Both the position numbers and the translations under genes were made by a program. From a virus, in the IMG/VR virus record IMGVR_UViG_3300044638_008813, positions 1 to 25,846 of that record: DNA of 25,846 nt; one strand, 5' to 3'. Within the stretch, counting starts at the first letter, position 1. Each line of letters opens with the position of its first letter. The notes beneath the pieces are model-generated. The model was not told the origin of the DNA and searched no databases. It saw only the letters and a list, made by a program, of their open reading frames with translations. This document shows, in pieces, positions 21,762 to 24,134 of the stretch.

Positions 21762-22445
21762 ATGAGTTTAGACAAGAAAATTATTAAGGAGATTGAAAGA
21801 CACAGAAAAATCAATCAATATATATTGGAGCAAGTTGGAGCGGCCCCAGAGGAAGATGTGTTAGGAGCATTGGCACCTGCAACTGGAGCAGAACCTGCAC
21901 CAGCACCTGCGGAGGCAATACCACCTGCGGCACCTGAAGTAGGGGCAACTGAACCACAACCAATTGATGTTGAATCAGATCCTGACGTTGAGAAAATTGA
22001 TGACGAAGGTGAATCGCAAGAAGGAGGAGAATCAGGTTCTGAAGAATTAGATATTACTGAATTGGTAGATTCACAAAAAAATATCGAAACCAAACAAGAA
22101 GAATATTTCAACAACTTATTTAATCAACTTAATGATTTACAATCTAAGTTAGGAGAGATGGATACGATTATGAATAAACTTAACTCTCTTGAAAATAAAA
22201 TAGAGAAGTATAGAGAAAAAACTCCACAAGAAAAGTTAGAGTTAAGAACCTATGATTCATATCCATTCAGTCAAAAACTTTCACAATTTTTTGATGACAA
22301 GCAAGACGAAATGGAAAAGACAGGAAAAAATGATTATGTTTTAACTGCTGACGAGGTTACAGATATTAATGTAAATGATATAAAAAATTCGTTCCAACCT
22401 GGTGGAGGTTTAGACAAAGAAGTCTATAAAACATCGTTCAGGTAA
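21762..22445 (+). CDS. Acidic, Ala/Pro-rich coiled-coil protein, probable virion component, 227 aa
   Basis: No family is recognised. Residues 1-26 form a basic helix (KKIIKEIERHRKINQYILEQ). Residues ~27-70 are an Ala/Pro/Glu-rich flexible linker with repeated AP and PA units, and residues ~70-97 are very acidic. Residues ~98-155 make a coiled coil (SQKNIETKQEEYFNNLFNQL, LNSLENKIEKYREK). The C-terminal part contains RTYDSYPFSQKLSQFFDD and ends PGGGLDKEVYKTSFR. Long helices joined by a disordered acidic linker suggest a flexible connector or fibre-attachment protein. It is the last gene of the late unit, and a strong terminator follows 18 bases after its stop. Confidence 0.78.
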   Translation: MSLDKKIIKEIERHRKINQYILEQVGAAPEEDVLGALAPATGAEPAPAPAEAIPPAAPEVGATEPQPIDVESDPDVEKIDDEGESQEGGESGSEELDITELVDSQKNIETKQEEYFNNLFNQLNDLQSKLGEMDTIMNKLNSLENKIEKYREKTPQEKLELRTYDSYPFSQKLSQFFDDKQDEMEKTGKNDYVLTADEVTDINVNDIKNSFQPGGGLDKEVYKTSFR

Positions 22446-22451
22446 TATCGA

Positions 22452-22473
22452 ACAAACTACATAAAAGGTACCT
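22452..22473 (+). repeat. Direct repeat, copy 1 (terminator upstream of the methyltransferase)
   Basis: These 22 bases, beginning ACAAACTACATAAAAGG, recur exactly at 23177-23198. The likeness continues through the terminator loop (TCTC against TTAC, partly diverged) and the right arm GGTACCTTT. Each copy directly follows a stop codon, and together they bracket the methyltransferase gene. Confidence 0.88.
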
Positions 22474-22489
22474 CTCGGTACCTTTTTTT
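22463..22489 (+). terminator. Rho-independent terminator at end of tail module
   Basis: AAAAGGTACC (22463-22472) pairs perfectly with GGTACCTTTT (22477-22486) around a TCTC loop, and the T-run continues to 22489. It ends the late tail unit. Confidence 0.9.
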
Positions 22490-22509
22490 ATTTAACATAG
22501 TAACAGTTT

Positions 22510-22516
22510 TATTTAT
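22510..22516 (+). promoter_or_regulatory. Putative late promoter core TATTTAT, methyltransferase gene
   Basis: TATTTATA lies 9 bases before the ATG and immediately after a terminator, so the gene has its own promoter. The leader would be only a few bases long. The overlapping TATATTTA also resembles a Bacteroidota -7 element (TAnnTTTG), but no TTTG stands at the proper distance upstream. Confidence 0.5.
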
Positions 22517-22525
22517 ATTTAGTTT

Positions 22526-23170
22526 ATGAACGAATTTGACAATATTGAGGAACAAAGGACTTGGAATAACTTAAATTTTTGGACTGATGGTGGTCACGAA
22601 TGGTCAAAATTCTTTGGAACAACTGAAAACCTTTGGAATAATTATCTTTTTGAACCATTAAAAAAATTTAGAGGAAAAAGAATTTTAGAAATTGCTCCAG
22701 GACATGGAAGAATATCTCAATTTTTAAGTGTGCTCGCAGATGAATTAATTGTTGTTGATTTGAACGAAACGTGTATTGAACAAACAAAAAAGAAACTTGG
22801 TAATCATATAAAAGAATATCACGTGAACGATGGGTTAAGTTTAACATCTATTCCAAGTAATTCAGTTGATTTGGTTTTTTCTTTTGATTCTTTTGTTCAC
22901 ATGCATAAAAATGTAGTGAAAAGTTATGTGAAAGAAATTTCTCGAGTTCTTGTTAATGATGGATATGGATTTATACATCATTCCTGTTTTCAAAATGGAT
23001 TAGATTATTCTTTCCAAAACTTAGCGGGAAGATCTAATATGGATGAAAAACTATTTAAGTCTTTCGTTGAAGAAAACAATATGAATATTATATCCCAAAA
23101 TACAATACAGTTTGAACCTGTTGGTTTTTGGAATGGTGTTGATACCCTTTCTTATTTTTACAAACCATAA
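22526..23170 (+). CDS. Class I SAM-dependent methyltransferase, 214 aa
   Basis: The enzyme should transfer a methyl group from S-adenosylmethionine. Motif I is RILEIAPGHGRISQFL (residues 52-67), the acidic residue that binds the ribose is Asp78 in LIVVDLNE, and a post-motif strand SVDLVFSFDSFVHMHK lies at about 113-128. The N-terminal signature LNFWTDGGHEWSKFFGTTEN followed by LW (residues 16-37) is, to my recollection, typical of methyltransferases in polysaccharide and surface-glycan clusters and in marine T4-like phages, not of DNA methyltransferases; the DPPY/NPPY motif of N6-adenine enzymes is missing. The target may thus be a sugar or small molecule. The gene has its own promoter core and terminator and is flanked by direct repeats, a self-contained cassette. 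The catalytic class is secure, the substrate unknown. Confidence 0.88.
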   Translation: MNEFDNIEEQRTWNNLNFWTDGGHEWSKFFGTTENLWNNYLFEPLKKFRGKRILEIAPGHGRISQFLSVLADELIVVDLNETCIEQTKKKLGNHIKEYHVNDGLSLTSIPSNSVDLVFSFDSFVHMHKNVVKSYVKEISRVLVNDGYGFIHHSCFQNGLDYSFQNLAGRSNMDEKLFKSFVEENNMNIISQNTIQFEPVGFWNGVDTLSYFYKP

Positions 23171-23176
23171 TATTAG

Positions 23177-23198
23177 ACAAACTACATAAAAGGTACCT
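23177..23198 (+). repeat. Direct repeat, copy 2 (terminator downstream of the methyltransferase)
   Basis: Exact second copy of the 22 bases at 22452-22473, 725 bases downstream. It lies seven bases after the methyltransferase stop and runs into a near-identical terminator hairpin. Confidence 0.88.
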
Positions 23199-23217
23199 TA
23201 CGGTACCTTTCTTTTTA
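23189..23217 (+). terminator. Rho-independent terminator after the methyltransferase
   Basis: AAAGGTACC (23189-23197) pairs with GGTACCTTT (23202-23210) around a TTAC loop, followed by CTTTTTA. It isolates the replication module from the late units. Confidence 0.88.
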
Positions 23218-23248
23218 TTTGACTTTGTCATCTTTTTTCTTATTTTTG
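23218..23248 (+). promoter_or_regulatory. Bacteroidota-type promoter for gene 32: TTTG-N19-TATTTTTG
   Basis: TTTG at 23218-23221 and TATTTTTG at 23241-23248 are separated by 19 bases, a full match to the Bacteroidota consensus TTTG / TAnnTTTG read by the host primary sigma factor. It lies between a terminator and the gene 32 start, giving a leader of about 28 bases. No TATTTAT core is present, which fits early or middle expression by the unmodified host polymerase. Confidence 0.82.
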
Positions 23249-23282: not shown

Positions 23283-24134
23283 ATGATGAGTTCATTAGAC
23301 GCCGTATTGGCACAGTACGAAAAATCACAACAAGGGGGCGGGGCCCAATCAAAAATGTCGCAAGACGAAAGAATGAAAAAGTATTTCGCTTTAATCTTAG
23401 GAGACAAAGAGAAATCAGGACAGAGAAGAGTGAGAATTCTTCCAACTTCAGATGGTTCATCACCATTCAAAGAAGCATGGTACCACGAAATTCAAGTGGG
23501 TGGACAGTGGCAGAAATTCTACGATCCAGGAAAAAATGACAACGAACGTTCACCTTTGAATGAGGTTTACGAAGAATTGATGTCTACAGGTAAAGAGTCT
23601 GACAAATTATTGGCGGCTCAGTATCGTTCACGAAAATTCTATATTGTGAAAGTAATTGATAGAGACCACGAGGAAGACGGTCCAAAGTTTTGGAGATTCA
23701 AACACAACTTTAAGAATGATGGTATCCTTGATAAAATCATTCCTATTTGGAGAAACAAAGGGGACATCACTGACCCTGAAAAAGGACGTGACTTAGTCAT
23801 TGAACTCGCTAAAGCAAAAACTCCAAAGGGTAAAGAATACACGACAGTTTCAACTATTATGTATGATGACCCAACACCAGTACATGAAGATAAACAACAA
23901 GCAAAGGCTTGGATGGAAGATGAGTTGACATGGTTGGATGTTTATTCTAAGAAACCTGTTGATTACCTTGAGGCAATAGCAAGAGGTGAGACTCCAAAGT
24001 GGGATTCAGATAAAGGTGGATACGTTTACGGAGACAGTTCAGTTGAAACCGAATCATTCGGTGGAGGTTCCAAAAAATCTTCATATGTTGATCCACAATC
24101 TAACGACGAACCTGACGGAGACCTTCCGTTCTAA
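23283..24134 (+). CDS. 32: Single-stranded DNA-binding protein (T4 gp32-like), cysteine-free, with SSB-like C-terminal tip, 283 aa
   Basis: gp32 coats single-stranded DNA in replication, recombination and repair. Likeness to T4 gp32 is seen at RRVRILPTSDGSSPFKEAWY (residues 48-67) followed by a HEIQVGGQWQKFYD strand, matching the FLPSK...PF...NHGF...GKWY region of T4. His68 aligns with the zinc ligand His64, but the three cysteine ligands of T4 gp32 have no counterpart: the whole protein contains no cysteine. The middle (residues 110-215) has aromatic and basic OB-fold-type strands. A Gly/Ser/acidic tail follows and ends EPDGDLPF, closely like the DDDIPF tip of bacterial SSB. The start could be the ATG at 23283 or the one right after it at 23286. 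A host-type promoter precedes it, uvsX follows. The gp32 call is supported by neighbourhood as well as sequence. Confidence 0.85.
   Translation: MMSSLDAVLAQYEKSQQGGGAQSKMSQDERMKKYFALILGDKEKSGQRRVRILPTSDGSSPFKEAWYHEIQVGGQWQKFYDPGKNDNERSPLNEVYEELMSTGKESDKLLAAQYRSRKFYIVKVIDRDHEEDGPKFWRFKHNFKNDGILDKIIPIWRNKGDITDPEKGRDLVIELAKAKTPKGKEYTTVSTIMYDDPTPVHEDKQQAKAWMEDELTWLDVYSKKPVDYLEAIARGETPKWDSDKGGYVYGDSSVETESFGGGSKKSSYVDPQSNDEPDGDLPF

Follow-up and report, generated by a model that had tools for sequence, protein, structure and literature searches.

The locus and its phage setting

The stretch of DNA analyzed here, referred to throughout as the window, is an entire IMG/VR contig of 25,846 bp and represents a phage genome only in part. 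It contains T4-like phage genes, with tail sheath, baseplate and hub proteins followed by gp32 and a UvsX-like recombinase. Upstream of gp32 lies a methyltransferase gene that is bracketed by two copies of a short intergenic module, and the features of this locus are as follows:

21762..22445, + strand: upstream neighbor, a 227-aa ORF of unknown function, which adjoins gp32 in relatives with an empty site
22443..22520, + strand: left copy of the putative terminator-promoter module, as delimited by BLAST self-comparison
22452..22473, + strand: left copy of the 22-nt exact repeat
22463..22486, + strand: predicted left intrinsic terminator T (stem GGTACC, loop TCTC, U-tract)
22490..22521, + strand: promoter-like element of the methyltransferase gene, resembling the type-B gp32 promoter in degenerate form
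22526..23170, + strand: cassette gene for a class I SAM-dependent methyltransferase (Methyltransf_11, 214 aa), variably present among relatives
23168..23247, + strand: right copy of the putative terminator-promoter module, as delimited by BLAST self-comparison
23177..23198, + strand: right copy of the 22-nt exact repeat
23189..23210, + strand: predicted right intrinsic terminator T' (stem GGTACC, loop TTAC, U-tract)
23217..23248, + strand: predicted promoter A of gp32 (TTTG-N19-TAnnTTTG, strict match at 23218)
23283..24134, + strand: downstream neighbor, a gp32-like single-stranded DNA binding protein

In a protein search of the phage collection, the only annotated relatives of the UvsX-like recombinase came from Flavobacterium phages (42% identity), and this kinship, together with the Bacteroidota-type promoter at gp32, points to a member of the Bacteroidota as the likely host. 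The same collection contained no match to the DNA of the locus or to the methyltransferase and gp32 proteins, and no relative of the methyltransferase turned up when bacterial genomes were scanned. No sign of lysogeny was detected in the 25.8-kb partial contig.

A duplicated, predicted terminator-promoter module

The longest exact direct repeat of the window is a 22-mer (ACAAACTACATAAAAGGTACCT) found at positions 22452 and 23177, in both cases 7 nt past a TAA stop codon, with a spacing of 725 bp; in 100 order-1 shuffles, exact repeats reached at most 19 nt (mean 15). Each copy carries a hairpin with a GGTACC stem, for which we calculated minimum free energies of -12.9 kcal/mol (z -5.7) at 22463-22486 and -12.2 kcal/mol (z -5.1) at 23189-23210. 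This hairpin pattern occurs at only two places in the window, the two module copies, against a shuffle expectation of 0. The initial annotation, which had reported a 22-base exact repeat and a nearly identical hairpin on each side of the gene, 725 bases apart and right after stop codons, was therefore accurate in these respects. Its description of duplicated terminators applies to the hairpins but understates the repeat, which is about 80 nt long and takes in the promoter. In a BLAST self-comparison, 22443-22520 aligned with 23168-23247 over 80 columns at 79% identity (E 8e-12), and other direct repeats of 30-400 nt at spacings of 300-4000 bp were absent from the window. The similarity spans the stop codon and runs through the U-tract into the following ~35 nt, where the promoter lies; for this reason, the duplicated unit is best described as a predicted terminator plus promoter, more than a terminator alone. 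The terminator and promoter activities of these modules are both assigned from sequence.

The gp32 promoter (TTTG-N19-TAnnTTTG) begins 7 nt past the right stem, and its TTTGAC is kept 5' of gp32 in the relatives compared. TAnnTTTG corresponds to the -7 box of flavobacterial sigma-A (PMC9723704). Two versions of the gp32 promoter, type A (GTTTGACTTTGTCATCTTTTTTCTTATTTTTG) and type B (ATTTGACATAGTCACAGTTTTACTTATATTTG), can be distinguished among relatives, and the copy that precedes the methyltransferase gene (TTTA ... TATATTTA) shares 28/32 identities with type B and 20/32 with type A, the final G of TAnnTTTG being missing. Thus, of the promoter core and terminator that the initial annotation assigned to the methyltransferase gene, the terminator is clear, but the core is better read as a degenerate promoter-like element of the Bacteroidota type. 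We dropped a reading of these promoters as sigma-70 elements, for which the number of matches equaled the shuffle expectation.

The methyltransferase gene

The sole coding content of the insert is the methyltransferase, which clears the Pfam cut-off for Methyltransf_11. Its G+C content (29.5%) is the lowest among the listed genes of the window, which has 34.6% overall. Among named subfamilies, the nearest was TIGR04371 (putative sugar O-methyltransferase), with a score of 36.2 bits, under the NCBIfam cut-off of 44. Homologs with 51-63% identity were detected in other viral contigs, either as solitary genes or within glycan clusters (L159, L160, L161/L162, L164 and L169), and several of them (~58-62% identity) are found alongside glycosyltransferases, a DegT aminotransferase, and an FkbM methyltransferase in phage glycan clusters. 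Our best guess is that the enzyme is possibly a sugar or glycan methyltransferase.

Empty and filled alleles in relatives

A gp32 search yielded 80 loci, and more were added by pattern scans. The methyltransferase gene was present in nine contigs, representing three sequence types with differing left flanks. An intact junction with one terminator and no methyltransferase was found in 24 contigs, including eight with a type-A promoter (L013, L016, L017, L092, L093, L094, L095 and L101) and 16 with a type-B promoter, two of the latter being apparently the same genome. The order in empty alleles is the 227-aa gene, one terminator, one promoter, and gp32, such that the two neighbors of the methyltransferase in the window adjoin each other in relatives; more distant relatives likewise have a single terminator at this junction and lack the gene. 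The intergenic distance from the 227-aa gene to gp32 is 114-116 nt in close empty relatives versus 841 nt in the window, and the difference of 725 equals the repeat spacing, which is what a filled site made longer by the gene and one additional repeat unit would give. These alleles support two proposals of the initial annotation, namely that the gene is a movable unit bracketed by duplicated terminators and that relatives would have a single terminator at the empty site.

The two empty types differ in how they relate to the filled allele. In the window, a B-like promoter precedes the methyltransferase gene and promoter A precedes gp32. Type-A empties combine the 5' flank of the left terminator, and in most cases its TCTC loop, with the promoter of the right copy, which would place a crossover inside the terminator; the U-tract length of the right copy is also present in several of them. 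The type-A empty allele thus has the recombinant structure that a filled genome would be expected to give through a crossover within its two terminators. This junction of left terminator and right-hand promoter also lends support to the suggestion, made in the initial annotation, that recombination between the repeats would allow clean loss of the gene.

Pattern scans of viral contigs located promoter A in 16 contigs, eight with the methyltransferase gene and the eight type-A empties, and in no contigs beyond these, outgroups included. Of 21 viral contigs with the B pattern, five have it before the methyltransferase gene and 16 have it at gp32 in empty alleles. Outgroup promoters may be slightly closer to B than to A, with likeness scores of 28 versus 22 (L028), 26 versus 24 (L018), and 26 versus 23 (L029). 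Because promoter A was seen in methyltransferase carriers and type-A empties only, we infer that type A is an excision scar and type B the pre-insertion state. The reverse order is possible for type A, since tree methods leave gains and losses unrooted and these phages are highly mosaic, and type-A empties could accordingly precede insertion.

This mosaicism is evident at the scale of single genes. A type-A and a type-B contig (L013 and L111) differ at 14 positions in the ~100-bp module patch, but at only two in ~450 bp of the 227-aa gene on one side and at none in the first 300 bp of gp32 on the other. The window and L004 have methyltransferase genes with 98% DNA identity, upstream genes with 76-82% identity, and left terminators of different sequence, and therefore the identity starts at the terminator. 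Trees of gp32, the 227-aa gene and UvsX each show the methyltransferase gene to be polyphyletic in this sample, with three changes on each tree. The trees give no direction because the background is mosaic everywhere, and whether a given lineage gained or lost the gene is inferred and not proven.

Several further observations were made on the locus in relatives. The hairpin loop at type-B empty junctions is either ATGA or TCAT (e.g., L111 and L023 versus L014 and L019), and these are reverse complements within a perfect GGTACC stem, as though the loop had been inverted. The right-hand terminator, 3' of the methyltransferase gene, is altered in two groups of filled contigs, being weak in L004 (-5.7 kcal/mol; group L004-L007) and unrecognizable in L008, where the flank likeness is not significant (group L008-L010); as a result, gp32 may be read through from the methyltransferase promoter in both groups. 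The gap between gp32 and UvsX is also variable; on inspection, no bracketing by the module was apparent around its inserts. In L054, L055 and L060 this gap holds an extra, homing-endonuclease-like ORF with zinc-finger-like CxxC motifs, next to a small gene whose own presence varies.

Similar cassettes at other sites

Bracketed cassettes were also detected at a different junction in another group of phages. L165 carries a methyltransferase of the same family (61%) after the gene that follows a primase-like gene, and its bracketing repeats (26 nt, one mismatch) are 694 bp apart; the gap of 800 minus the 106 in the closest empty relatives is likewise 694. At the same junction, the repeats of L195 enclose a DNA methyltransferase-like gene and an HNH-type ORF at a spacing of 1412 bp, again equal to its gap of 1512 minus the 100 in close relatives. 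The duplicated element in both contigs is a promoter region without a hairpin. L165 and L195 provide two independent cassettes that follow the same rule as the window. The agreement between length difference and repeat spacing in three unrelated cassettes provides a simple test with which genomes could be scanned for such cassettes.

The junction occupied in L165 and L195 (c6/c7) has the appearance of a second insertion hotspot, always between the same two genes, in these contigs and their relatives (L172-L251), with cargoes that comprise the methyltransferase, the DNA methyltransferase with its HNH ORF, an 82-aa gene, and a lysozyme-like ORF. Inserts of ~250 bp at this site (L175, L189 and others) showed no clear bracketing repeat. 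Among the other methyltransferase homologs, flanking repeats were clear only in L165 and were weak or at chance level in the rest; a flank match in L170 was rejected as a bracketing repeat, as it looks like two tRNA genes.

In a 326-kb relative (G001), arrays of near-identical terminator modules are interspersed with small accessory genes at ~223-236 kb. Many small accessory genes in this part of the genome (~223-240 kb; L149-L150) also have short common N-terminal tags, such as MKKVVRLTESDLTRLVRRVIDE, MKYIITESRLE and MNRSYSKIRHIQE, that resemble the T4 capsid-targeting sequences ending in I/L-x-E. The N-terminus of the 227-aa gene of the window (MSLDKKIIKEIERHRKINQYILEQ) is similar to these tags. 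Long low-complexity direct repeats of a collagen- or mucin-like kind (PTxT and similar) occur in G001, G002, G003 and G007, where they are probably parts of tail fiber genes.

A model for cassette exchange and its alternatives

Taken as a whole, the locus is in our view very probably one at which a composite module has been duplicated around the methyltransferase gene, the copies providing recombination homology for loss and gain of the gene. An ordinary junction would have one module, in which a hairpin ends upstream transcription and is followed by a Bacteroidota-type promoter for gp32. The order in the window would then be gene, T, promoter B', methyltransferase, T', promoter A, and gp32, and the module copies would presumably serve as short homology for the phage's own homologous recombination. 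A crossover between T and T' would remove the methyltransferase gene with one module copy (725 bp), leaving a module of T and promoter A, and entry of the gene could occur by allelic exchange or by module-module recombination with another phage. It is tempting to go further and to speculate, as a possibility that falls somewhat short of probable, that the modules are reusable exchange sites across the group, with each gain or loss of a cassette swapping the promoter of the adjoining core gene. Here, the methyltransferase gene would have taken the old promoter B of gp32, and gp32 would have acquired promoter A as a lasting regulatory scar, suggesting that an essential replication gene can have its promoter altered by the turnover of accessory genes.

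A history of gain alone is the alternative that we take most seriously, although we regard it as unlikely. Here, T and promoter A would be the ancestral recipient, and promoter B', the methyltransferase gene and T' would have been inserted at T with no excision. The left terminator of the window matches most type-A empties in loop and flank, and a methyltransferase gene that is 98% identical across lineages with very different upstream genes must have moved horizontally. However, promoter A was detected solely in carriers of the methyltransferase gene and in type-A empties and in none of the outgroups, the promoters of which are somewhat more B-like, and a history of this kind leaves the cassette's copy of the gp32 promoter B unexplained. 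Direct repeats around an insert could also be target-site duplications left by a transposon, an integron, an intron, or a homing endonuclease; homing endonucleases are common in T4-like phages, and the insert of L195 at the other site has an HNH-type ORF. Nevertheless, we find this very improbable for a cassette that encodes a methyltransferase alone and has diverged repeats of ~80 nt, which are the native terminator and promoter of the junction and are unlike known target-site duplications of transposons.

The initial annotation had itself raised the possibility of a standard terminator that the phage reuses after most of its genes, in which case the methyltransferase would be an ordinary, stable gene. 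The GGTACC stem is indeed kept at this junction in many relatives. Yet among eight relative records (37-326 kb) the hairpin occurs at one place in five, the junction of the 227-aa gene and gp32, and is absent from the other three; with at most one per record, it is not a standard terminator. The other terminators of the window have stems unrelated to GGTACC, the identity of the two copies reaches 11 nt 5' of the stem and through the promoter, and the methyltransferase gene, far from universal, is missing from most relatives, all of which makes this account extremely unlikely. An assembly or binning artifact that fused two phages must be kept in mind when all data are metagenomic contigs, but it is scarcely credible for a filled arrangement that recurs in nine contigs, among them three sequence types that differ in their left flanks, and in which the expected neighbors continue beyond both junctions. 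The initial annotation was right in essence, and the methyltransferase is a real, mobile accessory gene bracketed by modules.

Comparison with known systems

The cassette shares several features with morons, which are defined mainly from prophages, where the gene is expressed and is dispensable for lytic growth (PMC6814406, PMC2147016). It is a single gene with a clear terminator and a degenerate promoter-like element, it lies between genes that are adjacent in relatives, and it has the lowest G+C content among the listed genes of the window. Its flanking signals, however, are copies of those at the insertion site, a feature that the definition of morons does not include.

Modules that unite a promoter with a stem-loop, the promoter-early stem-loops (PeSLs) of T4-type phages, were reportedly described by Arbiol et al. 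in 2010 and Comeau et al. in 2014, and the 2010 study is said to have included excised mini-circles as a feature. The PeSL promoter is sigma-70-like. PeSLs are presented as mobile regulatory cassettes that mediate gene shuffling between close relatives in T4-type phages (PMC4503421), and similar stem-loop structures are noted in a haloarchaeal virus (PMC3950731). A literature search, with limited coverage of subscription papers, found no description of PeSL-like modules in Bacteroidota phages.

The modules described here, judged by sequence only, resemble PeSLs in that a terminator stem-loop and a promoter occupy one intergenic module of a T4-like phage, that module copies bracket accessory genes (one pair in the window, arrays of other modules in G001), and that differences in gene content between close relatives map to the modules, with a crossover inside the terminator. 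They differ in that the promoter is of the Bacteroidota type (TTTG / TAnnTTTG) and in that the site adjoins a core gene, gp32, and not a dense accessory region, and that alleles in a population of uncultured phages show the presumed states before insertion, filled, and after excision. These before, filled, and after states of a probable module-mediated gene exchange can be read at base resolution in a natural population, in phages distant from the cultured T4-like representatives on which the description of PeSLs is based. We suggest that the methyltransferase cassette works in a manner that resembles PeSL modules, in a new group of phages.
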